Virus record (IMG/VR): IMGVR_UViG_3300037584_002121
Location: 1-29,901 of that record
DNA: 29,901 nucleotides
Reading direction: 5' to 3' (one strand)
From: a virus
The translations under genes were made by a program, and so were the position numbers. The notes beneath the pieces are model-generated. The model did no database searches and was not told the origin of the DNA. It saw only the letters and a program-made list of their open reading frames with translations. Below are positions 16,047-29,419 of the stretch, piece by piece (within the stretch, counting starts at the first letter, position 1; the number at the start of each line of letters is the position of its first letter).

Positions 16047-17228
16047 ATGAGACTGGATAATAAATACGTAAATAAAACAATAAAAGAATATTCTCAAAGT
16101 GATGCTATTGGTTTTAAAATAGATGCTTTTAAAGAGTCTGTTAATGGTGGTAGTTTACAAGATACTCCCGCTGTTGATGCTATGTATCAAGGTACTAGTC
16201 AAGAGTATGCTGATTTAACACAGGCTTTAAAATCTGGTAAAATATCAGGAGACGAAGGTCAAATAGCTCAAAATAGATTAAGAGCTTTGGATCAAGCACC
16301 TGGTGTTACTAAAAACTTTTTAGAAAATTTATATTCTGTATTTGATGGCACAGAAGAAAAATATTATGATCCTAACAACAACTATGAATGGGCTTTGGTA
16401 AATAAAATATTTAAAGGTGCTCCAGGTTTTGGTGAAAATCAAGGTTATAGTGTTGAAATGAAAATGAAAGAAGATGGATCACAAGATTTAATTGCTTATG
16501 GCAAACCTTTTGATGGTGGTGAGTTTGTAGTTAATAGTGCATCGTTAAATGATATGCTTGAAGCAGGTATAGAACCTGTTTCTGTAACACCGGATATACC
16601 TACAGACATGCAAGCTGTTGCTGCTAGTTCAGGTATATTTGAAGACAGTATGATTGAAGGAGATAAATTAAAACCTAGTGCTTTGTTAGATATAGATACA
16701 TATGCGTTAAGAGGACCAGGAGGTGAATTTGAGTTTGAAGAAGTTCAAATAAATGATAAACAAAAAAGAAAGTTTCATAAATTTGATAAAGATAAAATAC
16801 TACAAAAAGTTGATCCATTTTTAAGAGCTGAAATAGCTGGTATAATGGAAAACGAAAGTAGCGCTGTCGCAGCATGGAATATGTTTATTGGTTCTAAAAT
16901 AACAGGTGAAGAAGATGCTCAAAGAGAAATAGATGCTACAGCAGGTGACAACAGTTGGTCTTACGATATATTACCATTAGACGCTAAACATAAAAGAGAT
17001 TTTTACGAAGGATATAAAGAATATTTCTTTGATAATTATTTAAAAGCATTTACACAAAATATAATACCAGAAGGAGCAGCAGGTGCTATACAGGAAATTA
17101 CAGTGGAAACAACAACAGATCAATTAAAAGATATAGGTTCAAAACTTAATAAAAAGAATCAATTATTTTATGATGAAGTTTTAAACAACATGGCTTCAAA
17201 AAGAGCAGCGGCTAAAACTAATGAATAG
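16047..17228 (+). CDS. Putative internal virion (cargo) protein
   Basis: The 393-residue product is soluble, charged and probably helical. It has no signal peptide or membrane segment and no catalytic motif that I recognise. The beginning (RLDNKYVNKTIKEYSQSDAI) and the DAMYQGTSQEYADLTQALKS segment suggest helical packing. The gene overlaps the start of the 2660-residue gene by 8 nt, so the two are probably translationally coupled and made in related amounts. It lies among ejection/cargo candidates, which suggests storage in the capsid. It could also be a chaperone for the giant protein. Confidence 0.55.
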   Translation: MRLDNKYVNKTIKEYSQSDAIGFKIDAFKESVNGGSLQDTPAVDAMYQGTSQEYADLTQALKSGKISGDEGQIAQNRLRALDQAPGVTKNFLENLYSVFDGTEEKYYDPNNNYEWALVNKIFKGAPGFGENQGYSVEMKMKEDGSQDLIAYGKPFDGGEFVVNSASLNDMLEAGIEPVSVTPDIPTDMQAVAASSGIFEDSMIEGDKLKPSALLDIDTYALRGPGGEFEFEEVQINDKQKRKFHKFDKDKILQKVDPFLRAEIAGIMENESSAVAAWNMFIGSKITGEEDAQREIDATAGDNSWSYDILPLDAKHKRDFYEGYKEYFFDNYLKAFTQNIIPEGAAGAIQEITVETTTDQLKDIGSKLNKKNQLFYDEVLNNMASKRAAAKTNE

Positions 17229-20200
17229 ACAACAAAAACAGCTTTTAAACATATTTATACAGCAAGTAAAAAATGAATATGCTACAAAGCATGAGCAAGA
17301 AAATGCTCAGATACAAGACGGTACGTTATCAGAAGCTGATAGATCTTATCCTACTTCAGCACCTCCTCAAGATTTTCTTCAAGAGCAAATCGCTGTGTTT
17401 AAAACTTCTAAAGAATATTTAGACCTTAGAGATAAAAAAACAGAGATTCAAGTACGTGATGGTGTAGAAACAGTTTTAACTGGTGATAAAGATGAACCTG
17501 CTTTTGTGGATGGTGTGTATACGGTTCAAACAGAACTAGAGCCAGTAGTATTAGGTGATACAAATTTAGAAGAATTTGAAGAAGCAGAACAGCAAGAACT
17601 AATGGATGCGACTGGCGCAAGTGATCCATATTCTCAAACATCATTGCCATCAGATGAAGATACAACTACTAGAGTAGATTATAGTTTTTATCCAACAGAA
17701 GCTGCTCAGAAATTATCAGATGCGGCAAATACTGGAGGTGAAGAATATACTAAAGCTAGAAATGAATACGACGAAGCTATACAAGCTAAAACTGATGAAT
17801 TAACAGGTTTAGCGAAAGCAGTAGGCTTAGATGTTCCTTATAATTTATTTGATATTGTAAGTAAAGCTACGTTTGGTAATAAAACAGCTAATCAAACAAT
17901 TAGAGATTTACTAAAAGATATTAGAGAAAAAAAGCCAGAGCTTATAGACGCTAGCAAGCTTTATACAGAACTAGTAGATATTTCTGATGAAGGATTAGAA
18001 AAAAGCACAGTAAAGTTATTTGATTTAAGCAAAGCTCCTGAAGAAGAAGAAATATTTATTAAAAATAATCCACACTTATTTAATTATTTAAATAACAAAG
18101 AAAATAGTGTTAAAAAATTAAGAGAGCTTATAATAGAAAAAACAGGTATAGACCCTGACAAAGTAAATCTAGACTGGTATGAAAATCCTGAAAATTTATC
18201 AGATGATGAGCTAGAAGAAGTATTAGGAAATAAAAAGTTAAGCGAATATGCTAATATATTAAATTATTATAAGAAATACAAAGATGAATCTGAAAAAGGT
18301 AATTTAAAACCATTTGATGTTCCAGAAAACGCAGAACACGATTTAGCTGAAAAAATATTTGCTTATAGACAAGTTTTAAAAAATCCAAACCTGTCAGAAG
18401 AACAAAGAGAAAAAATATTAAAAAGAGTAAAATCATTATCTGCACTACAAGAAGATTATAGCACTGCAGATCAAGCTATATGGGACGCTAAATATGCTCC
18501 TGGTTTTACCGATGCTAAATACTATGGAGATTTAATAAAGGGATTTACTGGTACTGTTTTAGATATAACAGCTGGTTTAGTTGATACACCTGGATATGTA
18601 AATAAACTTCTTCTACAGACATTTTTTCCAGATGAAGTTCAAGCTATTGAAGATAAGTATGCTGGTGATACTGTAGCTGAAACTAAAGCATTAAACATGC
18701 TAGGAGCTTCTAAATTAAGTTTTGGTACTTCAGTTAATGGTATGATGCTTGCTAGTATTGCCCCTGATATATCTAATGTGATTAGAGAAACTGCAGATAA
18801 TATAACTGAATCTGCATATCAATATAGAGGTGGTATGTTAGATAACATGACTACTGGTGGTTTTAATTTTAATGATGTTGCGGATGTTGGTGCTAGACTT
18901 ACAAATGAAACTATAAAATCATTACCATATATGGTTGTTTCAAGTTTAAATGCCTACGGTGTTCCTGTAGGATTAATAGCTATAGGTACTAGTACAGCTA
19001 CAAATACTGAATACGAAAACAATAATGCAGCTTCAGAAGCTTTTAATCAACTTCAAAAACTAGATCCTCAAGCAGAAAATTATGAGGAACAAGTAAAAGA
19101 GTTGCAAAAAGTAATAGCAGCTGGTGATATAAATGGTCGTAACCTAGCTCATTCTTTAGTGGTTGGTACTGTTAATAGTGTTCTTGAAAGATTTTCTGGT
19201 AAAATAGGTAGAGAATTTTTTGCCGCAGCTAAAGGTCAAGCAAAAGAACAAATTGAAAAAGGTTTAAAATCTTACTTAAATAAAGTTATGTTAGGTGTAG
19301 GTGGTGAAGGAGGTACAGAAGGACTACAATCAACAATTGAAAAATTATCTGAATTTATTGTACAAGGTAAAGAAGTAGAGTTTACAGAGGCATTAAAAGA
19401 AGTTATTGAGTCAACACTTATTGGAGGTACTTCAGGTGGTCTTGTAACCGGTGGTGGTAGTGGTATGAATATAGTTACACAAACCGTAAGAGAAAATGCA
19501 CAAAATAGTATTTTAAAAGAGGTTAATCAAGAAAATTCTTTTGAGCTTTATAAAAATGATCCATTTGATCAAGTAGAAACACAAGCTGATGTTGAAGTTG
19601 AAAATCCTATAAATACTAATATAAACGAAGCTCAAATATTATTTGCTCAAGTACCTGGTTCAGAATACAGATTAGAAGGCGAAGTAAATTCAAAGATTGC
19701 AGCAGGTGATATAACTATGTTAGAGGGTAATAACATTAGACAAAACTTTAGAGATATACAAGGTGCTACAAATCTTTTAAAACCAGCTGGTCTTGAAACA
19801 AATGTTGAAGCAGTTAATTTGATGGTTGAGAAGAAAAAGCTTGAAGAAAGGATAGAAGAGCTAAAAAAAGTTAGTCCTGTAGCAGCTTCCAAATTACAAG
19901 TTAGAGTTGATCAAATAAATAATAGATTAGGTGACTTAACTACCGAAGCAATGTCTGATTCTAAAGGTATAGCAGCTGCAATTATAATTCCAGGTGTTAC
20001 TAAAGTTATGGACTTAGCAGCCAATAATGAAAAGACTAATTTTAAGAAAAGAGAATTAGAACAAGATTCAGGTATAAATGAATTATTGTTAAAAACTATT
20101 AAAGATCCTAATACTAAAAGAGCTGATATTAACCAAGCAACAGATGCGTTAATAGAAAATAATAAAGCTCTATATTATAAAGCTGTAGGGTTTGATCCTC

Positions 20201-23200
20201 AAAGAGGTGATATATCTGGTAAATCTGTTATGGATGCTATACGACCATTATTAGGTCCTATAATTAAAAACTTCGATGCATCAAAAGGCGTTACATGGAG
20301 TACGTATGTAACTAATTCACTTAGTAAAAAGAAGCAACAAATATATAGCGAAGCAGGTATTGGTCAACAAAATATTAGTTTAGATGCTGAAGGTGCTATG
20401 CAGGTAGCTGATACACAAGCTGAACAAGATACACAGCAAGATATACCACAAAGACCTAAAGTATATCCTTCACAACTAGAAGCTGTAGCCAAAGTTCTTA
20501 CGCCTGAGGTAAGAGAAACACAAAACACTAAAGTAAAAGATGAAATAATAAGATCAATTAATGATAAAGGTGTTAGTCCTAAAGTTGTAGCTACAGATCT
20601 TATAAGTAAAACTAGAGAAAAAGAAATTAGAAATGTTATCAAAGGAGCTGTAGGTAGGTTTGGTTCGCCAGAATATAATCAGTTTGTAGATGACGTTGTA
20701 AATCAAGACTTTATAAATTCATTACCAGTATCTACTATTAAGGGTAGATTTGGTAAATTATTTGGTATTGAAGAAATTAGTAGAACACCTACTAAAAATG
20801 TTAGAGAAGGTAAAAAAGATTCTAACTTTAAAAAGCAAGTATTTAGAATACCTAAAACTACGCCTGAAACTATACAAAAAATAAAAGATTATTTTAAAGC
20901 TAATGAAAAAAGATCACAGTCTTTATTTAGCATACTTGCTGAAGGTGCAATAGTAGAAGAAGTACAAACCATGCGAGGTGATACTGAGTTTATGAATAAA
21001 CTAAACGATGTATTAGAATTAAAAGGTTCTGAATTAAATGCTGAACAGTTTATGGATCAGTTACAAAAAGATGCTGATCAAAGAACTAAAGAAGATACTT
21101 CATTAGATGTAGTTGAAGATGTATTAGATAATATGATACAAGGTGTTGATTCATATATAGAAAGTATGAAAGGAACACTTAGTGTTAATCCTATTGTTCC
21201 TGCTGCTAGAGCAATTAAAGCTGGGCTAAAAGTTTTTAAAACTGTTTATCAAAAAACTAAGTCTATAGTTAAAGCTATTAATGCAGCTGCTAATGAAATA
21301 TATAATCGATTAAAAGGTGAAGTTTCTAAAAAAGACATAAAAACTATACTTGAAACAGAGATAACTCAAGAAAATGTAGACAACAATACTGTAGATCTTG
21401 ATTCTCTTATTGATAATTTAGCAGAAAAACTAGGTGTTAACAGAGGTATTGCTTATGAAAACGCTGTTTATGATATTGCTAGAGCTGTTGCTAGAAAAGT
21501 AGGTCCTATATTTAAAGTAACAGGTGAACAAACCGAAAAAGAAGGCGCTGCTGATTTTAATTCTGAAATTGCCGGTAATGATTTTATAGTAGAACTAAAA
21601 TTAGATCCAGCTAAGCTAGGTAGCGTTAAATTTAACATTAATTCTGATGGTAGTATTACGCTTGCTAAAGATAATGTTAAATCAAAAGAAGCTTCAGAAA
21701 TAGCATCAAAGGAAGCAGGTAAAAAGGTAAAGGTTGTAATAGAAAAAGACTACACATTTAAAAAAGATTTGCAAAAAGCTGTTGCTAAAAACAAAAAGAA
21801 TATAAAAAGATTTAGAGACAGAGCTGAACAACTGGGTCAAGATATGAAAGATTTTGACAAAGGAATTATAAATAAAGATGTATATAATCAGTTAAAAAAA
21901 GAAGGTTTATTAAATGATGCTAGAGCAACAATAACCATGCCTGTTGATATGGTTGCAGAAATATATCAAAAGAAAAAACCAAAACCTACTGATTATATAA
22001 ATGTAAAAGGTAAAGGACTTTTTTCTTTTAATAATCGTTTAGGTTTACCAGTTGATCCAGTAACAGGTACTGTAGCAGTTAATGTTGGTTATACAACTTC
22101 AGGTACAATATATAAAAAAGTAGATGGTAAAAAAGTTGACACTGGTAATAGAGATTTTTTCTTTAGAGCAGAACCTTTTAAATTTAATGATTTAGGTAAA
22201 TCTAAACATACTATAGATACAGAAGCTGGTATAAATAAATTATTAAAAACACCTTCGGTAAAAATTTTAGCTGAAGCTCAAAAAGAAAAAGGTAAAATAG
22301 CTAATACAGCACCTGATATAGTTAGTGATAAACAAACAACAGTTGAAGTTAAACAAACATTAGTTAACTCACAAGATGCTAGAAACAAAGCTCAAGAGGT
22401 AAAAAAAGAAACTAAAGGTTTAAGTGCTTTTGACTTTGATGATACACTAGCATTGACAAAAGAAAAAGTAATATATACGCTTGATGGTAAAACAGGTGAA
22501 TTAACCGCAGGTGAATTTGCTGTTCAAGCAGAAGACTTAGCTGCTCAAGGAGCTGAGTTTGATTTTAGTAATTTTGAAAATGTAGATTTATCTACATTAG
22601 AGGGTCCAATGGTAGATGAAGCAAGGAAAAAACAAAAGAAGTTTGGACCAAAAGATATATTTGTTGTAACCGCTAGACCTAACGCGTCTGTAGATGCTAT
22701 ACACACGTTCTTAAAAGGTATTGGTTTAAATATACCTAAATCAAATATTACAGGTTTAGGTAACGGTGAGCCACAAGCCAAAGCTGATTGGTTTTTAAAT
22801 AAAGCAGCTGAAGGTTATAATGATTTTTATTTTTCTGATGACTCATTATTAAATGTTCAACAAGTTAAAAACGTATTAGATCAAATAGATGTTAAATCTG
22901 AAGTACAACAAGCTATTGCTTCTAAAGAACAAACCTTAGATGAACAGTGGAATAAACAAATAGAAGAGGTATACAGTGTAAAAGCAGGTGAAACAGTAAG
23001 TGATGTAAGAGCTAGATTAGAAGGTAAGAAAAAAGACGGCGGTATAGTTAAAAGAATAGGTAAACAATTTACAATTACTGCATCTGCAGCAGACTTTTTA
23101 GGTTTATTATATAGCGTTGCAGGTACAGGTAGGCAAGGTGATAGACATTTAAAATTTATTGATGACCACTTAATTAAACCTTATAACAAAGCTGAGCAAG

Positions 23201-25203
23201 AATTATTATCAGCTAAAGTTACAATAGCTGCAGATTTCGCTGCTCTTAAAGATGCTTTTCCAAACATAAGATCTAGAAAAAATAAACTAGGTATACCAAG
23301 AAATCCATTAACTGATCCAATAGGAGTTGGTCCTTATACTAAGTCTCATGCTGTAAGAGTTTATTTATGGAGTAAACAAGGAACTGAAATACCTGGTATT
23401 GATCAAAAAGATGTAGATGCTTTAGTTGAAGCTGTTGAAAATGATTTAGAATTATTACCTTTCGCAGATAATATTTTATTAATTCAAAAAGGTGATGGTT
23501 ATCCAGCACCAAAAAATTCATATTGGGTAGGTGGAAATATAGCTTCTGATATAATGAATGGTTTAGATACTACGTATAGAGCTGAGTTATTAACAGAGTG
23601 GAAGCAAAATGTAGATATAATATTGTCTGATAAAAACCTAAATAAGTTACAGTCTATTTTAGGTAGCAAATGGGTTGAAGCTATAAAAGATTCTATAAGT
23701 AGACAAACACGTGGTAGTAATAGACCTATATTTGAAGGAAGTGGTTCTCGTCAAGTCAACGATATGCTTGATTGGCTTAACGCTTCTGTAGGTGCTGTGA
23801 TGTTCTTAAACATGCGTTCTGGTTTATTACAATTAATATCTAATGTAAACTTTATAAATTGGGGTGATAATAATATATATAACGCCGCTAAAGCTTTTGC
23901 TAGTAAAGAATACGTGCCTACTGTATTAAAGCTTATGAACTCTGATTATCTTGTAAACAGACGTGATGGTTTAAAGATAAATGTAAATGAAGCTGAATTA
24001 ACAGAAGCTGCTAATAAAGGTGGAATACAAGGTATGATCAGTTACCTACTTGATAAAGGTTTTGTTATAACTAGAATTATGGATAGTTTAGCTATTGCTA
24101 CTGGTGGTGCTACTTTCTTTATTAACAGACAAAAATCTTTATTAAATAGAGTAAATGAAAAGACTGGTGAACTATATACGCCAGCAGAAGCAGAAACTAA
24201 AGCATTTGATGATTTTTATGCAATAGCAGAAGAAACACAACAGTCAAGTAATCCTAGTAAAATATCATCTCAACAAGCTAGTTACGGTGGTCGTTTACTA
24301 TTGTCTTTCCAAAATGTTACTATGCAGTACAATAGAAAGACTAAAAAGTTTATACAAGATCTTTACAACAGACGTAGAAGACCAGGTATGACTCAGCGTG
24401 AAAGTGATTTAAGTAATATATCAGGTGTTATATACTATGTAGGTGTACAGAACTTAATATTCAATGGGTTACAACAAGCTTTATTTGCTACACTATTTGA
24501 TGATGATGATGAATATAAAAAAGAACAAGGCAAAACAGCTAGAATAGCTAACGGCATGTTAGATTCATTGTTAAATGGATTAGGTTTTGGTGGAGCTATT
24601 GTATCTACAGTTAAAAACTTAGGTATGAGATTACTTAGTGAAAGCGAAAAAGAAAGTCCTAAATATATCGATGCTGTAGATACTGTGTTTGATGTATCAC
24701 CTGTTATAGATGCTAAGATTAGAAAACTAAAATCAGCTGCTAAAACTTTTGAATGGAACATGGAAGATATTAAAAAGAGAGGTTGGAACTTAGAAAATCC
24801 AGCTTATCTAGCAGTGTCACAAATAATATCAGCTTTTACAAACGTTCCTGTTGATAGGGTTTTAAGAAAAGGTATGAACATAGCTCAAGCATTTGATGAA
24901 GAAACTAAAGCTTGGCAAACAGTTGCGCTATTAATGGGTTGGTCAGGTTGGAACGTAGGTTTACCATATTGGGGACTGGAAAGTACTATTAAAAGAGAAG
25001 CTGAAGAAAAAGAAAAATTTATGGAAAAATATAAAAATGATGTCCGTAAATTTAAAAGCCAAGGATTTACTAAAAGAATACCTTTTACTGGTGCAAAAGC
25101 TTTACCAAAAGGAGGGAAACCAGAAGGTAAACTTGGTGTTGATTACATAGCCATAGAAAGATATGATGGCAAAATACAGTATTATATAAAACCTAAAAAA
25201 TGA
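17221..25203 (+). CDS. Giant polyvalent internal virion protein with sigma-like, nuclease-like and HAD phosphatase regions
   Basis: The 2660-residue product spans 27% of the window. Residues 1-420 are acidic and helical. Residues 435-600 contain weakly hydrophobic segments (for example LPYMVVSSLNAYGVPVGLIA near 568), and Gly-rich stretches occur near 690 and 735-750. Residues 985-1050 resemble sigma-70 region 2 (FDASKGVTWSTYV at 1018-1030). Residues 1425-1465 hold a PD-(D/E)XK-like pattern (D1445, E1458, K1460). Residues 1735-1880 carry a complete HAD signature: D1738-F-D1740-D-T1742, T1817 in VTARP, K1854, and D1873-D1874. Residues 2181-2420 form a helical, conserved-looking region (DMLDWLNASVGAVMFLNMRS). 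The C-terminus is basic. Position after the ejection-protein genes suggests capsid storage and injection with the DNA. It fits the published 'polyvalent protein' theme in phages. HAD is the surest domain; the other two are weak matches by eye. Confidence 0.75.
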   Translation: MNRQQKQLLNIFIQQVKNEYATKHEQENAQIQDGTLSEADRSYPTSAPPQDFLQEQIAVFKTSKEYLDLRDKKTEIQVRDGVETVLTGDKDEPAFVDGVYTVQTELEPVVLGDTNLEEFEEAEQQELMDATGASDPYSQTSLPSDEDTTTRVDYSFYPTEAAQKLSDAANTGGEEYTKARNEYDEAIQAKTDELTGLAKAVGLDVPYNLFDIVSKATFGNKTANQTIRDLLKDIREKKPELIDASKLYTELVDISDEGLEKSTVKLFDLSKAPEEEEIFIKNNPHLFNYLNNKENSVKKLRELIIEKTGIDPDKVNLDWYENPENLSDDELEEVLGNKKLSEYANILNYYKKYKDESEKGNLKPFDVPENAEHDLAEKIFAYRQVLKNPNLSEEQREKILKRVKSLSALQEDYSTADQAIWDAKYAPGFTDAKYYGDLIKGFTGTVLDITAGLVDTPGYVNKLLLQTFFPDEVQAIEDKYAGDTVAETKALNMLGASKLSFGTSVNGMMLASIAPDISNVIRETADNITESAYQYRGGMLDNMTTGGFNFNDVADVGARLTNETIKSLPYMVVSSLNAYGVPVGLIAIGTSTATNTEYENNNAASEAFNQLQKLDPQAENYEEQVKELQKVIAAGDINGRNLAHSLVVGTVNSVLERFSGKIGREFFAAAKGQAKEQIEKGLKSYLNKVMLGVGGEGGTEGLQSTIEKLSEFIVQGKEVEFTEALKEVIESTLIGGTSGGLVTGGGSGMNIVTQTVRENAQNSILKEVNQENSFELYKNDPFDQVETQADVEVENPINTNINEAQILFAQVPGSEYRLEGEVNSKIAAGDITMLEGNNIRQNFRDIQGATNLLKPAGLETNVEAVNLMVEKKKLEERIEELKKVSPVAASKLQVRVDQINNRLGDLTTEAMSDSKGIAAAIIIPGVTKVMDLAANNEKTNFKKRELEQDSGINELLLKTIKDPNTKRADINQATDALIENNKALYYKAVGFDPQRGDISGKSVMDAIRPLLGPIIKNFDASKGVTWSTYVTNSLSKKKQQIYSEAGIGQQNISLDAEGAMQVADTQAEQDTQQDIPQRPKVYPSQLEAVAKVLTPEVRETQNTKVKDEIIRSINDKGVSPKVVATDLISKTREKEIRNVIKGAVGRFGSPEYNQFVDDVVNQDFINSLPVSTIKGRFGKLFGIEEISRTPTKNVREGKKDSNFKKQVFRIPKTTPETIQKIKDYFKANEKRSQSLFSILAEGAIVEEVQTMRGDTEFMNKLNDVLELKGSELNAEQFMDQLQKDADQRTKEDTSLDVVEDVLDNMIQGVDSYIESMKGTLSVNPIVPAARAIKAGLKVFKTVYQKTKSIVKAINAAANEIYNRLKGEVSKKDIKTILETEITQENVDNNTVDLDSLIDNLAEKLGVNRGIAYENAVYDIARAVARKVGPIFKVTGEQTEKEGAADFNSEIAGNDFIVELKLDPAKLGSVKFNINSDGSITLAKDNVKSKEASEIASKEAGKKVKVVIEKDYTFKKDLQKAVAKNKKNIKRFRDRAEQLGQDMKDFDKGIINKDVYNQLKKEGLLNDARATITMPVDMVAEIYQKKKPKPTDYINVKGKGLFSFNNRLGLPVDPVTGTVAVNVGYTTSGTIYKKVDGKKVDTGNRDFFFRAEPFKFNDLGKSKHTIDTEAGINKLLKTPSVKILAEAQKEKGKIANTAPDIVSDKQTTVEVKQTLVNSQDARNKAQEVKKETKGLSAFDFDDTLALTKEKVIYTLDGKTGELTAGEFAVQAEDLAAQGAEFDFSNFENVDLSTLEGPMVDEARKKQKKFGPKDIFVVTARPNASVDAIHTFLKGIGLNIPKSNITGLGNGEPQAKADWFLNKAAEGYNDFYFSDDSLLNVQQVKNVLDQIDVKSEVQQAIASKEQTLDEQWNKQIEEVYSVKAGETVSDVRARLEGKKKDGGIVKRIGKQFTITASAADFLGLLYSVAGTGRQGDRHLKFIDDHLIKPYNKAEQELLSAKVTIAADFAALKDAFPNIRSRKNKLGIPRNPLTDPIGVGPYTKSHAVRVYLWSKQGTEIPGIDQKDVDALVEAVENDLELLPFADNILLIQKGDGYPAPKNSYWVGGNIASDIMNGLDTTYRAELLTEWKQNVDIILSDKNLNKLQSILGSKWVEAIKDSISRQTRGSNRPIFEGSGSRQVNDMLDWLNASVGAVMFLNMRSGLLQLISNVNFINWGDNNIYNAAKAFASKEYVPTVLKLMNSDYLVNRRDGLKINVNEAELTEAANKGGIQGMISYLLDKGFVITRIMDSLAIATGGATFFINRQKSLLNRVNEKTGELYTPAEAETKAFDDFYAIAEETQQSSNPSKISSQQASYGGRLLLSFQNVTMQYNRKTKKFIQDLYNRRRRPGMTQRESDLSNISGVIYYVGVQNLIFNGLQQALFATLFDDDDEYKKEQGKTARIANGMLDSLLNGLGFGGAIVSTVKNLGMRLLSESEKESPKYIDAVDTVFDVSPVIDAKIRKLKSAAKTFEWNMEDIKKRGWNLENPAYLAVSQIISAFTNVPVDRVLRKGMNIAQAFDEETKAWQTVALLMGWSGWNVGLPYWGLESTIKREAEEKEKFMEKYKNDVRKFKSQGFTKRIPFTGAKALPKGGKPEGKLGVDYIAIERYDGKIQYYIKPKK

Positions 25204-25289
25204 AAGAAAAATTTAAAAAATTCGTAGATAAACTACAGAAAGCTTGGAACGGGCTATTATATAAATTAATGTTTAAAAAATATAAATAA
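25200..25289 (+). CDS. 29-residue cationic amphipathic peptide
   Basis: This small frame starts in an ATGA overlap with the stop of the giant gene and ends at TAA, just before the outer-membrane protein gene. The product begins MKEKFKKFVDKLQKAWNGLL and ends LMFKKYK. It is Lys-rich, with Phe, Val, Leu, Trp and Met recurring every three to four residues, so it would form an amphipathic helix. The stop-start overlap, absence of a better gene in this 92-nt gap, and a clean stop support it. It might bind membranes (lysis helper) or be an accessory to the upstream protein. Peptides this short can arise by chance. Confidence 0.5.
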   Translation: MKEKFKKFVDKLQKAWNGLLYKLMFKKYK

Positions 25290-25295
25290 TGAAAA

Positions 25296-26474
25296 ATGAA
25301 AAAAATATTATTTGTCCTCTTTGCGGCGGCGTTTGCGGTATCTGTTAATGCTCAAGATAAAAAGAAATTATTTAAAGACTTTTTAAAGTATAGCACGGTG
25401 TATATTTCTGGAGATATTCAAAACTCTAAAGAAAACGCACCAAGTTATTTTGTTAGAACAAATCCTAATGGTAGTTTATACGATGTACCTGTTGTAGTCG
25501 ACGGTACTGACTATTATGATTATGATTATCGCTATGGTTTTGGTATTCGTAAGATTGCTAGATTTGATTATGAAATAAAAGGTAAGCAATACTACGATGG
25601 CACTGAATCTAACGTGTCTATGACAGCACCTAACTCAGCTATAAAAGGTTTTGAATATGTATTTCATACGGAAAAAGAAAGATCCAGAGATGATGTTTTT
25701 AAAAATCATAGATATTTCTTAAAACATAGTGGTAAATACCATATTGCAAAAATAGAAAGTAGAAAACAAGGTAAAATTAATTTTGATTATAAGTCAGCTG
25801 AAATTAGAGCTAAGCTACCTATTGGTAAGAAATTTTCGTTAAGTGCAGGCGCCATTTATAGAACTCATGAGCGTCCTTATGGTTATAATCCAGTAGAAAT
25901 ATGGCTGAATGAAACTAATGAGGACGGTTTTGCAGTAAATCCTTGGTACACACTTGGTTTTTATTACGGTTATGATGATATATACTACACATATGAAGAT
26001 GATTATTCAGGTGAAACAGTATCTGATTGGTACTGGATTAATGAAGAAGGTCAAACCGTAGCTTATACAGATTTACAATTTAGGCAAACAGTGTTCACTG
26101 ATCTTATGAATCGTTATAATGAAGAGGTGTGGGAAGAAATTGACGCGTTTGGTGTTATATCACCAATCGTCGGTTTTGACTATTACCATTATAAAAATAA
26201 CTTTTGGCTTCATGCTTACGGGTCTTATTTACTACCGTTTCATAACTATGTAAAAGGTGATGAAGCTTTTAGTTATCACAATAGAAACAACTGGGGTCTC
26301 GGTGGATTACGTGAAGATGCAGAAAAAGAACAGTGGGAAGATTATCAAACCGGTGTACAGTTTGGATGGAAACTTAGCAAAAGCATAGGATTATTTGTTG
26401 AAGGCGAATATACTAAGTTTTGGGATAGTAAGATATATAATAGTTCAGTAGGATTAAATATAACATTAAAATAA
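25296..26474 (+). CDS. Secreted outer-membrane beta-barrel-like protein
   Basis: The 392-residue product has a textbook Sec signal peptide: MKK, a hydrophobic core, and cleavage after VNA before Gln-20, the form typical of Bacteroidota. The mature part is rich in Tyr, Asp, Trp and Gly with alternating beta-strand patterns (VYISGDIQ, FSLSAGAIYRTHE, WYTLGFYYGYDDIYYTYEDD, FWLHAYGSYLLP). It ends in an amphipathic last strand (VGLNITLK), as in outer-membrane barrels. It probably inserts in the host outer membrane late in infection, or is exposed in the periplasm. Roles could include blocking superinfection, weakening the envelope, or changing surface receptors; none is shown. It heads a run of three envelope-targeted genes. 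No family name is recognised. Confidence 0.65.
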   Translation: MKKILFVLFAAAFAVSVNAQDKKKLFKDFLKYSTVYISGDIQNSKENAPSYFVRTNPNGSLYDVPVVVDGTDYYDYDYRYGFGIRKIARFDYEIKGKQYYDGTESNVSMTAPNSAIKGFEYVFHTEKERSRDDVFKNHRYFLKHSGKYHIAKIESRKQGKINFDYKSAEIRAKLPIGKKFSLSAGAIYRTHERPYGYNPVEIWLNETNEDGFAVNPWYTLGFYYGYDDIYYTYEDDYSGETVSDWYWINEEGQTVAYTDLQFRQTVFTDLMNRYNEEVWEEIDAFGVISPIVGFDYYHYKNNFWLHAYGSYLLPFHNYVKGDEAFSYHNRNNWGLGGLREDAEKEQWEDYQTGVQFGWKLSKSIGLFVEGEYTKFWDSKIYNSSVGLNITLK

Positions 26475-26475
26475 A

Positions 26476-26760
26476 ATGGCAAAAAAAATAGGCGAAGAAA
26501 CTCAAGTAACACTTGATCTTAAAACTATAGGCATGATAGTAGGTTTTGTAATTATGTTAGCAGGTATGTGGTTTACATTGCAAGCAGATATAGCTCAAGC
26601 TAAAGAATTACCTGAACCAGTTATTGATAGAATAGAATATGATTTAAAAGATGAGTTAATTCGTCAAACAATCATGGATACTCAAGAAGATGTTGAAGCT
26701 ATGCGAGATCAACTAGATAAGATTGACGAAAGATTATATGAAATACAAAAACAAAGATAA
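26476..26760 (+). CDS. Single-TM coiled-coil protein, holin or inner-membrane spanin candidate
   Basis: The 94-residue product has a short charged N-terminus and one transmembrane helix at about residues 18-36 (IGMIVGFVIMLAGMWFTLQ). A long charged coiled coil follows (DLKDELIRQTIMDTQEDVEA, then MRDQLDKIDERLYEIQKQ). This N-in, coiled-coil-out plan fits inner-membrane spanins and some small holins. From memory, similar small proteins occur near lysis genes in uncultured marine phages. It begins one base after the previous stop and its own TAA overlaps the next ATG (TAATG), implying coupled translation. Whether it forms holes or bridges the periplasm cannot be told from sequence. Confidence 0.55.
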   Translation: MAKKIGEETQVTLDLKTIGMIVGFVIMLAGMWFTLQADIAQAKELPEPVIDRIEYDLKDELIRQTIMDTQEDVEAMRDQLDKIDERLYEIQKQR

Positions 26761-27170
26761 TGAAATATATATTTTTATTTTTAATACCGTTTGTATCATT
26801 TAGTCAACAAGATGTTCCTGAAGAATATTGGATAACAGATGGTGATTTTGAAAACGTTATTAATACTAATGAGGCTTTTGGTGATGATGAAACAAAACCT
26901 GTAATAGTAGAGTTTTGGGCTAAATTTAATGAAGCAAATTGTTTTGCTGACTGGGATAAATTAGAAAATGTAATTTATTATAGAGCTGATATAGCTAAAA
27001 ACCCTGAAGCAAAAAAGAAATACAGAGTAAGAATGGCACCAACATTAATTATTTTTAAAGATGGTGTTAAAGAAATAGTTTTTAAAGCAGGTTTAGATCT
27101 TGTGTTACCTGCAAAATTAGAAGAAATACAAGAAGCAATAAACGAAGTTAATAAAGCTTCACAATTTTAA
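26760..27170 (+). CDS. Secreted thioredoxin-fold protein lacking the CxxC motif
   Basis: The 136-residue product has a signal peptide (MKYIFLFLIPFVSFS before Gln-Gln) and then a thioredoxin-like domain. The hydrophobic strand and motif KPVIVEFWAKF at residues 47-56 match the strand before the active site. Beyond it are ADIAKNPEAKKKYRVRMAPT and LIIFKDG, with P94 in the cis-Pro position (MAPT). Where WCGPC is expected the sequence reads KFNEANC, leaving a single cysteine (C61), so dithiol oxidoreductase activity is unlikely. It may act in the periplasm as a binding or chaperone-like protein, or as a single-cysteine reagent. It is translationally coupled to the TM coiled-coil gene. Confidence 0.65.
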   Translation: MKYIFLFLIPFVSFSQQDVPEEYWITDGDFENVINTNEAFGDDETKPVIVEFWAKFNEANCFADWDKLENVIYYRADIAKNPEAKKKYRVRMAPTLIIFKDGVKEIVFKAGLDLVLPAKLEEIQEAINEVNKASQF

Positions 27171-27173
27171 ATT

Positions 27174-27638
27174 ATGAGTAATAATTATAAAAAAGAAATA
27201 AAAAAAGTTTTCAAGCTAGATAGCGCGAAGAACATAGCTGGTAAATTATTAAATGGCCAAGGTGACCCGAATATGGTAGGTGGAACCATAGGTGGTTTAG
27301 ATTTATTAGGTGGTGGTGCTGTAAAAGGTTTTGTAAAAGGAGCAAAAGGTTTTATTGGCAAAGCAAGACAGTTTTTAGGTAAAAAACCTCCTAAGAAAGG
27401 ATTTTTTAAACCAATGCATAGAGATGGTAAAGTATATAATACACAATCTATTAACGATGCTTTTTCGCAAAGATTTGGTAAACCGCAAAACGTGGTTAAA
27501 AAAGCAACTGAAGGGAAAGGTGAATTAGCTGCTTTAAAAAAAGCTAAAAACATGGCAAGTAAAGCTGGACCAAAAAATTCAGTAAAAAGTTTATCAAAAT
27601 CATCAACTAGACGAACAAACTTTAATAGTGGTCGATGA
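27174..27638 (+). CDS. Basic Gly/Lys-rich small protein
   Basis: The 154-residue product is strongly basic, with Lys spread throughout and a KSLSKSSTRR tail. A Gly-rich, mildly hydrophobic stretch (residues 36-70, MVGGTIGGLDLLGGGAVKGF then VKGAKGFIGKARQFLG) could form an amphipathic membrane-associating helix. No signal peptide or catalytic motif is visible. Its stop overlaps the start of the next small gene (ATGA). It lies inside the lysis-type cassette. It could be a membrane-active factor, a nucleic-acid-binding virion protein, or a minor structural component. No family is recognised. Confidence 0.5.
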   Translation: MSNNYKKEIKKVFKLDSAKNIAGKLLNGQGDPNMVGGTIGGLDLLGGGAVKGFVKGAKGFIGKARQFLGKKPPKKGFFKPMHRDGKVYNTQSINDAFSQRFGKPQNVVKKATEGKGELAALKKAKNMASKAGPKNSVKSLSKSSTRRTNFNSGR

Positions 27639-27785: not shown

Positions 27786-28250
27786 ATGGAAAATATAAGT
27801 AAAAATATAACTTATGCTGAAGCTATACATTCAAATACAGCTAAGCGTAAAGGTATAGATAATACACCTAACCCTACTCAATTAGAAAATATGAAAGTTA
27901 CTGCTGAAAAAGTTTTTGAGCCATTACGTGCTTGGGTTGGTGGACCTATAAAAGTAAACTCATTTTTTAGATCACCAGAACTTAATACAGCAATAGGTGG
28001 AGTTGCTTCTAGTCAACATTGTAAAGGACAAGCAATTGATATTGATGATGTTTATGGTAGAAAATCTAATGCTGAGATGTTTACTTATATAAGAGAAATT
28101 CTTGATTTTGATCAAGTAATATGGGAGTTTGGTACAGATATGAATCCTAACTGGATACATGTATCATACGTTTCAAAAGAAGAAAATAGAAATCGTTGCT
28201 TAAAAGCTTATAAAGACGATAGAGGAAAAACTAAATATAAAATAATTTAA
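27786..28250 (+). CDS. M15-family zinc peptidase, endolysin candidate
   Basis: The 154-residue product matches the peptidase M15 (D-Ala-D-Ala carboxypeptidase/endopeptidase) fold. It has IKVNSFFRSPELNTAIGG at about residues 55-72, then the SxHxxGxAxD zinc motif (H78, D85, within SSQHCKGQAIDID). E114 (VIWEFG) is a likely catalytic acid, and the third ligand H125 is in WIHVSY. All key residues are present and the length fits a single-domain enzyme. It would cleave peptide stems of peptidoglycan. No signal peptide is present, so release to the periplasm would need a holin, and a one-TM candidate lies about 1 kb upstream. A virion-bound wall-degrading role is the alternative. Confidence 0.85.
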   Translation: MENISKNITYAEAIHSNTAKRKGIDNTPNPTQLENMKVTAEKVFEPLRAWVGGPIKVNSFFRSPELNTAIGGVASSQHCKGQAIDIDDVYGRKSNAEMFTYIREILDFDQVIWEFGTDMNPNWIHVSYVSKEENRNRCLKAYKDDRGKTKYKII

Positions 28251-28251
28251 A

Positions 28252-28860
28252 ATGCCAAACAAAACAACAAAAGATAGTTTAGGTCGTGACGCAGCTTGGG
28301 CTAAATGGGAAAAAGGTTATATGGATAGAACCCATAAAATGAAAGGTACTAAATTTGAAAAACCTATTACTCCTGAAGAAAATAGAAGAGAAATGGAAAT
28401 GGAAAGAGGTGAGTTCATGTATGATAAAGCTAAAGGTCAAATAAGACTAAGAAAAACTGATGATGCTGAAAGACCTTTAGAAATGAGATCACCATTAGAT
28501 CATAAACCATTTACTGGTAGAGCTCATATACATAATAAAAATAGCGTATCATATGAGGGTGATAATACTTTTGAAAAAAACAAAAAAGCTGGTGGAAAAG
28601 TTGTACCAGCTGGAAAAGCCTATAAAAGCAGAGATGAATATATGAAGGATTCAACTAGAAACGAACCTCATAAAGCTGAAAAGAAATCACCATTACAAAT
28701 GGTTGGTGTACAAAGCCCGTTAAATAAAATTAGTGGTCCTTGCAAAACTGCGGCTAAAAAGAAATTTAAAGTATGGCCAAGTGCATATGCTTCTGGTTGG
28801 GGCGTAAGATGTACTAAAGCCGGTGGGCCAAGTAAATACGGAGGCGGTAGTAAAAAATAA
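28252..28860 (+). CDS. Protein with C-terminal WPSAYAS motif (DUF5872-like)
   Basis: The 202-residue product has a highly charged, probably disordered N-terminal ~140 residues with Lys/Glu-rich segments and short SPL tripeptides (MRSPLDHK, KKSPLQMV, VQSPLNKI). A compact C-terminal segment, residues 160-202, holds KKKFKVWPSAYASGWGVRCT and then KAGGPSKYGGGSKK. From memory, the K-V-W/Y-PSAYAS pattern marks a small uncharacterised domain (DUF5872-type) found in phage and giant-virus proteins. Two cysteines (in GPCKT and RCTKA) frame it. There is no signal peptide. It lies between the M15 peptidase and a PAP2 phosphatase. The domain label is moderately sure; the function is unknown. Confidence 0.6.
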   Translation: MPNKTTKDSLGRDAAWAKWEKGYMDRTHKMKGTKFEKPITPEENRREMEMERGEFMYDKAKGQIRLRKTDDAERPLEMRSPLDHKPFTGRAHIHNKNSVSYEGDNTFEKNKKAGGKVVPAGKAYKSRDEYMKDSTRNEPHKAEKKSPLQMVGVQSPLNKISGPCKTAAKKKFKVWPSAYASGWGVRCTKAGGPSKYGGGSKK

Positions 28861-28861
28861 A

Positions 28862-29419
28862 ATGAATTTATTTAATAACTTCGATATACAGACGTTTAAA
28901 AATAAAAAACCTCCTGCAGATAATTCTATGTCTACATTTAAAGAGATAAATGAAATAAATAAAATGCCTGTAAATGAAAAGTTTGTAAGATACAATGATG
29001 ATCAGGAAAAAGTATTTAAAGATTTATTTAAAAAGAATAATTTAAAATTTCCTAATCAATTATTTAAACAATTAACTAACGATAGTCACCCTGTTATTAA
29101 GAAATTAAAAAATTATCATAATAGGACTAGACCAAATGGTTTAGCTAGTGGTTTTGGTTTAAACGTAGAAGTAGTTAATATGGATACAGCTAAAACTAAA
29201 TCATATCCATCAGGTCACTCAGCACAATCTAGACTATTTGCTAAAGTATTTAGCGATATATATCCTAAATATAAACAACAATTTATGAAAGCCGCAGATG
29301 ATATTTCAAAAAGTAGATTAATAGGTAGAGTACATTACCCTTCTGATTCACAAAACGGTGTAGAATTAGGTGATGCGCTTTATCAACACTATAAAAATCA
29401 AAACAATGAGAGTATTTAA
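28862..29419 (+). CDS. Soluble PAP2-superfamily phosphatase
   Basis: The 185-residue product carries all three signature motifs of type-2 phosphatidic acid phosphatases and vanadium haloperoxidases. These are K83-x6-R90-P91 (KNYHNRTRP), PSGH at 116-119 with the catalytic H119, and S151-R152-x5-H158-x3-D162 (SRLIGRVHYPSD). No transmembrane helices or signal peptide are seen, so it is like soluble class A acid phosphatases rather than membrane lipid phosphatases. The substrate could be a lipid phosphate, a nucleotide or another phosphomonoester. I chose the ATG at 28862, one base after the previous stop, over an upstream in-frame ATG at 28823 that would overlap the previous gene by 38 nt. Confidence 0.85.
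   Translation: MNLFNNFDIQTFKNKKPPADNSMSTFKEINEINKMPVNEKFVRYNDDQEKVFKDLFKKNNLKFPNQLFKQLTNDSHPVIKKLKNYHNRTRPNGLASGFGLNVEVVNMDTAKTKSYPSGHSAQSRLFAKVFSDIYPKYKQQFMKAADDISKSRLIGRVHYPSDSQNGVELGDALYQHYKNQNNESI

Follow-up and report, generated by a model that had tools for sequence, protein, structure and literature searches.

What does a phage gain from three adjacent genes whose products appear to be addressed to the outer membrane, the inner membrane and the periplasm of its host? The question is raised by a 29.9-kb virus record, hereafter the window, which was analyzed over its whole length and represents about half of its phage genome. A terminase gene lies at the left end (phrog_6681, E 1e-132). 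The virion genes are followed by a gene for a 2660-aa protein (17221-25203, plus strand), then by the three genes of interest, which we call OMP, TMC and TRX, and finally by a peptidase M15 endolysin gene (27786-28250, plus strand; phrog_894 E 7e-29, PF08291 E 3e-17). The endolysin gene, which the first-pass annotation had missed, sits 0.6 kb downstream of the trio. That annotation had suggested that the trio is either a lysis apparatus other than Rz/Rz1 or a device for superinfection exclusion or envelope remodeling. We argue below for a role in lysis and propose, more tentatively, that the trio acts in the manner of a spanin.

Three envelope-directed proteins and their surroundings

The ORF check recovered the three adjacent reading frames with the signal peptides and the transmembrane (TM) helix first attributed to them, and likewise their tight packing: OMP and TMC are separated by a single nucleotide, TMC and TRX overlap by one (TAATG), and the gene after TRX begins at 27174. 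Homologues of the three occur in over 100 viral contigs, and their median dN/dS values are low (NG86; 0.105 for OMP, 0.095 for TMC and 0.136 for TRX), which identifies them as genuine genes rather than chance ORFs.

OMP (25296-26474, plus strand) encodes 392 aa, with a Sec signal peptide at about residues 1-19. An AlphaFold2 model made from an alignment of 70 relatives (mean pLDDT 78) contains 12 long strands. Foldseek's own TM-scores for this model were low, only a DALI-like realignment of its matches being informative; the top PDB matches so realigned are outer-membrane barrels exclusively, with CymA giving the best alignment (Z 12.3, rmsd 4.7, 199 residues aligned). The outer-membrane barrel proposed at first reading is thus upheld. 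With medium confidence, we take OMP to be a closed outer-membrane beta barrel exported by its signal peptide; the model supports the barrel class well, whereas neither structure comparison settles the barrel family. Long loops are predicted at 43-76, 192-284 and 313-348, and the predicted extracellular loops are moderately conserved. Cysteine is missing from 129 of 148 OMP proteins. A serine-dependent lipase of the OmpLA or PagL kind is not supported, no serine being invariant among 70 OMPs.

TMC (26476-26760, plus strand; 94 aa) has one N-terminal TM helix at about residues 17-36 and a conserved helical or coiled-coil C-terminal domain of 59 residues, as the description of a TM coiled coil had implied. 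The mean frequency of the majority residue is 0.84 in the C-terminal domain versus 0.67 in the TM segment; since the soluble part is the better conserved, an anchor fits better than a pore. None of 139 TMC proteins contains cysteine. The orientation is uncertain because the charge bias flanking the helix is weak. The best profile match is to PHROG_1009 (E 4e-5), a functionally unannotated family, and the same search gave no significant match to holin families (phrog_20, E 0.28). TMC was rejected as the sole holin in loci L058, L063 and L288, each of which carries another.

A TMC paralogue with the motif KWPRGEMGALPDDAKQDL (phrog_20984) was noticed in L067 (7188-7487), L326 (4001-4300), L337 and L368 (3827-4249). 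It sometimes adjoins TMC, and it also occurs in trio-free lysis cassettes with a holin and an amidase or M15 enzyme. In the trio-free cassette of L326 it lies between amidase and holin genes, and in the cultured Pelagibacter phage HTVC027P it is found near an M15 gene; these positions support the view that members of the TMC superfamily act in lysis. Weak relatives of the paralogue are present in the Pelagibacter phages HTVC027P, HTVC121P and HTVC041P.

TRX (26760-27170, plus strand; 136 aa) carries a Sec signal peptide at about residues 1-15. The secreted thioredoxin fold announced for it is confirmed by Pfam (PF00085, E 1e-6, better than the curated cut-off) and by a model (pLDDT 84) that matches Deinococcus radiodurans Trx2 with Z 14.4 (rmsd 1.9, 101 residues aligned). 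The cis-proline region, RMAPT, and a KAGLDL motif are conserved. What had gone unnoticed is the loss of the CxxC motif, absent from all 67 aligned members; this excludes dithiol chemistry, and a redox role was therefore rejected. The mature part contains exactly one cysteine in 132 of 144 distinct proteins, rarely none or two, and the mutually exclusive positions of this lone residue are, for the most part, 61 (88 proteins, including that of the window), 81 (30) and 116 (13). On a tree, the position shifted only about twice within the main group, and the most distant members lack the cysteine. This pattern suggests, and does not prove, that selection keeps one free thiol in TRX.

Several other features of the window deserve mention. 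Directly upstream of OMP, a 29-codon ORF (25200-25289, plus strand) encodes a cationic (+8) amphipathic peptide, MKEKFKKFVDKLQKAWNGLLYKLMFKKYK. Near-identical copies occur in 16 other loci and the peptide is conserved in at least 17 loci overall; as its mean dN (0.09) is far below its mean dS (1.1), the ORF is probably a real microprotein gene. The peptide may be membrane-active, in the fashion of a disruptin, and is a possible extra member of the cassette. Inspection by eye picked out a HAD-like stretch (FDFDDTLA ... VVTARPN ... FSDDS) in the 2660-aa protein, which is probably a large component of the virion. Downstream of the endolysin, a small gene overlapping its neighbors (28823-29419, plus strand) encodes a PAP2-family phosphatase domain (Pfam E 6e-8).

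The window's terminase is related to those of Elemovirus (46% identity) and Cellulophaga phages, and is 66% identical to that of the metagenomic phage MW202828. These relationships, together with the style of the signal peptides, point to marine phages most likely infecting Bacteroidota. A scan of contigs from metagenome-assembled genomes (MAGs) returned nine, in MAGs labeled Woesearchaeota, Alphaproteobacteria, Maricaulis and Bacteroidetes; since the longer of these contigs carry phage genes beside the trio, the labels do not settle the host. Four loci (L163, L164, L168 and L171) belong to the Woesearchaeota MAG RS366 and one (L167) to a Maricaulis MAG; phage contigs in MAGs with archaeal or alphaproteobacterial labels are probably binning errors. 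In 50,697 phage records, tblastn detected no significant relative of OMP (queries from the window and the divergent L170) or of TMC (queries from the window and L063). The matches of TRX in cultured phages were thioredoxins only and covered under 60% of the protein, and the compared stretches of MW202828 and Elemovirus, which by terminase are the nearest annotated phages, contain no match to the trio.

An obligate trio in the company of lysis genes

Whether the three genes co-occur elsewhere was the check proposed with the first-pass annotation. Loci were collected from IMG/VR by searches anchored separately on OMP, TRX and TMC, and each locus was examined with the profiles of the whole trio. 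A search keeps the closest 80 matches, so that distant loci are under-represented. Among the matches listed, and where the flanks were long enough, the whole trio was present in 100 of 100 distinct loci anchored on TMC, in 154 of 154 anchored on OMP and in 146 of 146 anchored on TRX (the latter two sets not deduplicated); with three separate anchors, none of these matches revealed one of the genes occurring independently. In 97 of the 100 loci TMC overlaps TRX or is no more than 15 nt away from it. Two gene orders exist, OMP-TMC-TRX as in the window and TMC-TRX-OMP in divergent phages; the latter characterizes the most distant loci found (L170, L282-L287, L063, L167 and L288), which also hold the whole set even though the OMP of L170 is only 34% identical to that of the window. 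The contigs concerned reach 181 kb and include, besides phages of the window's kind, large phages in which ribonucleotide reductase genes lie close by. Pairwise distances correlate better within the trio (r 0.60-0.67) than between the trio and the neighboring M15 gene (r 0.40-0.47), indicating that the set stays together even when the neighbor is exchanged. OMP, TMC and TRX thus form an obligate three-gene unit.

The company that this unit keeps was counted in the 95 loci where TMC is flanked on each side by 3.5 kb or more. An endolysin gene lies within 4.5 kb in 86 of them: 73 encode M15 enzymes, seven a protein with a peptidoglycan-binding domain (phrog_2649 and similar), five the phrog_3000/33083 type and one an amidase_2. 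Five of the nine remaining loci carry, in the same arrangement, a small phrog_1501 protein and TM proteins. As a control over entire contigs, 26 large records (over 60 kb) were examined; 15 have an M15_3 gene, and each of these 15 has one at a distance of 0.6-2.2 kb from TMC. In a 65-kb genome, a position chosen at random would fall so close in far fewer than one case in ten. As the large records share ancestry, more weight falls on the finding that endolysins of four unrelated kinds lie beside the trio in different genome settings. Two large phages are exceptions, their only matching lysin being 41-72 kb away. No holin was recognized in the window; separate holins accompany the trio in L058 (phrog_3427, E 1.5e-16), L288 and L063. 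The last of these is instructive: a holin (phrog_3427, E 4e-21) and an amidase endolysin (E 4e-52) adjoin the trio, and the neighboring genes include no lipoprotein. With holin and endolysin accounted for, the outer-membrane step is what is left for the trio.

An obligate unit recurring in lysis cassettes with four unrelated endolysins favors a function in lysis, and we consider such a function likely. The lysis apparatus distinct from Rz/Rz1 envisaged at first is thus supported in part, by its genetic company and its lipoprotein-free composition; its mechanism is at the stage of a proposal.

A candidate bridge between the membranes, and its competitors

The module that we envision serves host lysis in a spanin-like way, with disruption of the outer membrane as the last step, and we hold this reading with a confidence a little short of even. 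We infer the contacts among the three proteins, the orientation of TMC, the dimerization of TRX and the membrane-disrupting act as follows. TMC would be anchored in the inner membrane, its helical domain projecting into the periplasm, and OMP would lie in the outer membrane, where a barrel would serve as anchor in place of a lipoprotein. TRX would be a redox-inactive periplasmic adapter joining the two, perhaps as a dimer disulfide-linked through its lone cysteine. Once the endolysin has removed the peptidoglycan, the assembly could bridge the membranes and break or fuse the outer one as spanins do. The compartments and folds assumed here are those predicted by the models. Weighing against a spanin-like action are the shortness of the putative periplasmic part of TMC (59 aa), the two large phages with a distant lysin, and the cysteine of TRX, which moved only about twice and which the most distant members lack.

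The same position in lysis cassettes would suit a relay that times lysis in the manner of T4 T and RI. In it TMC, with its single TM helix and a periplasmic domain, would act as a holin or regulate one, TRX would be a secreted periplasmic antiholin or sensor, and OMP would be a surface reporter of, for example, superinfection. The topologies of TMC and TRX match this scheme; RI has a cleavable signal peptide and, as an antiholin of the periplasm, binds the holin T (PMC8385771). However, TMC resembles no holin family significantly, its conservation lies outside the TM segment, and separate holins accompany the trio in L058, L063 and L288, all of which makes the relay unlikely. We think it somewhat less probable still that OMP, late in infection, hides surface receptors or takes their place, while TRX and TMC help with its assembly or anchoring. 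Long, moderately conserved loops on a phage-made barrel would be explained, and lysis has no strict need of a surface protein; yet the trio keeps company with endolysin genes, not with early ones, and an obligate inner-membrane coiled coil with a thioredoxin partner would have no explanation. Nor is much to be expected from the notion that OMP and the other two genes encode a virion component or a host-metabolism set, such as an uptake porin, brought near endolysin genes by chance. The OMP fold does resemble passive channels such as CymA and OmpG, and the trio comes after the virion genes in the window; but Sec signals are unusual in virion parts and the linkage to unrelated endolysins recurs across different genome settings, so that this explanation is very improbable.

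A more conventional scheme would leave the outer-membrane step to an ordinary spanin, formed by TMC or its paralogue as i-spanin and a lipoprotein encoded nearby or elsewhere, OMP and TRX merely assisting or regulating. A lipoprotein is indeed present in the cassette of 38 of the 95 loci, which means that the trio need not replace a spanin. One Pro/Asn-rich lipoprotein family accounts for 22 cassettes (for example L098, 4003-4437; L247, at G030 25863; L337, 3494-3829), its gene sometimes lying between OMP and TMC, and L337 combines it with the TMC paralogue, a holin and an M15 enzyme. The composition of this family is reminiscent of o-spanins, and no relative was found in cultured phages. Among nine relatives of 62-71 kb, most have a Pro/Asn-rich or YfiM-like lipoprotein in the trio cassette, and the half of the genome outside the window might encode one. 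On the other side, 57 of the 95 loci have no lipoprotein ORF within 3.5 kb, and the window has no lipobox ORF of at least 40 aa on either strand. None was found in the 69-kb relative G024, nor a genuine-looking one in G025. The lipoprotein is optional, whereas OMP and TRX are not, and we judge the conventional scheme rather improbable.

If the spanin-like reading is correct, a thioredoxin fold has been reused as a non-redox part. The trio may well be an as yet undescribed means of rupturing the outer envelope of the host when infection ends, and it offers a concrete, widely conserved candidate for outer-membrane opening in phages of a major marine bacterial group, while giving context to hundreds of unannotated phage genes.

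Relation to known lysis systems

About 13% of the phage genomes in a 2018 survey had no recognizable spanin, and how the outer membrane is opened there was left open; Kongari et al. explicitly kept the possibility of an outer-membrane protein acting as o-spanin (PMC6139136). In the open-licence literature we found no paper on a spanin-like set of phage barrel and thioredoxin-fold protein in Bacteroidetes. With T4 T and RI the trio shares a single-TM membrane protein with a putative periplasmic domain and a secreted periplasmic partner; it differs in its outer-membrane barrel, for which T4 has no counterpart, and in the separate holins of some cassettes, and no sequence relation was found. TRX has the fold and cis-proline region of thioredoxins (PF00085), but is secreted, lacks CxxC and, having at most one useful cysteine, is incapable of dithiol chemistry.

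The hallmark of spanins is a lipoprotein, which either acts alone and carries a TM segment itself or has a partner in the inner membrane (PMC6139136, PMC12596118). Unimolecular spanins such as T1 gp11 are the sole type reported in Bacteroidetes phages (PMC12596118), so that the trio shares with them the host group and the expected outer-membrane role; unlike these single lipoproteins with a C-terminal TM helix, it comprises three proteins without a lipidation signal. No protein of the unimolecular kind, with lipobox and C-terminal TM helix, is encoded in the window, and short candidates appear in few relatives only (L052, L058, L197 and L209). The parallels with the two-component spanins, exemplified by lambda Rz/Rz1, are more numerous. 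They include a predicted inner-membrane protein with an N-terminal TM helix and a helical, putatively periplasmic domain (TMC, its orientation being weakly indicated), partner genes that abut or overlap, a place beside the endolysin and a lone cysteine in one subunit, Rz1 there and TRX here. Rz1 dimerizes via its single cysteine, and spanin function needs either the Rz1 dimer or the Rz Cys152 disulfide (PMC5295617); by analogy, a disulfide-linked TRX dimer would perhaps be the counterpart of the Rz1 dimer. Lacking a lipoprotein, the set is unlike Rz/Rz1 in composition: its outer-membrane member is a predicted barrel, a thioredoxin-fold protein is an obligatory third partner, and no sequence relation was found. 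By composition the trio belongs to neither spanin class; its parts and its place, with the M15 gene nearby in the window, an endolysin close by in 86 of 95 loci and a holin in some, fit a spanin-like worker encoded, as spanins are, with holin and endolysin. It is tempting to speculate, doubtful as the step is, that several unrelated groups of marine Bacteroidota phages share a spanin of a third class: a bridge of three parts, free of lipoprotein, with a barrel as anchor and a redox-dead thioredoxin as adapter.
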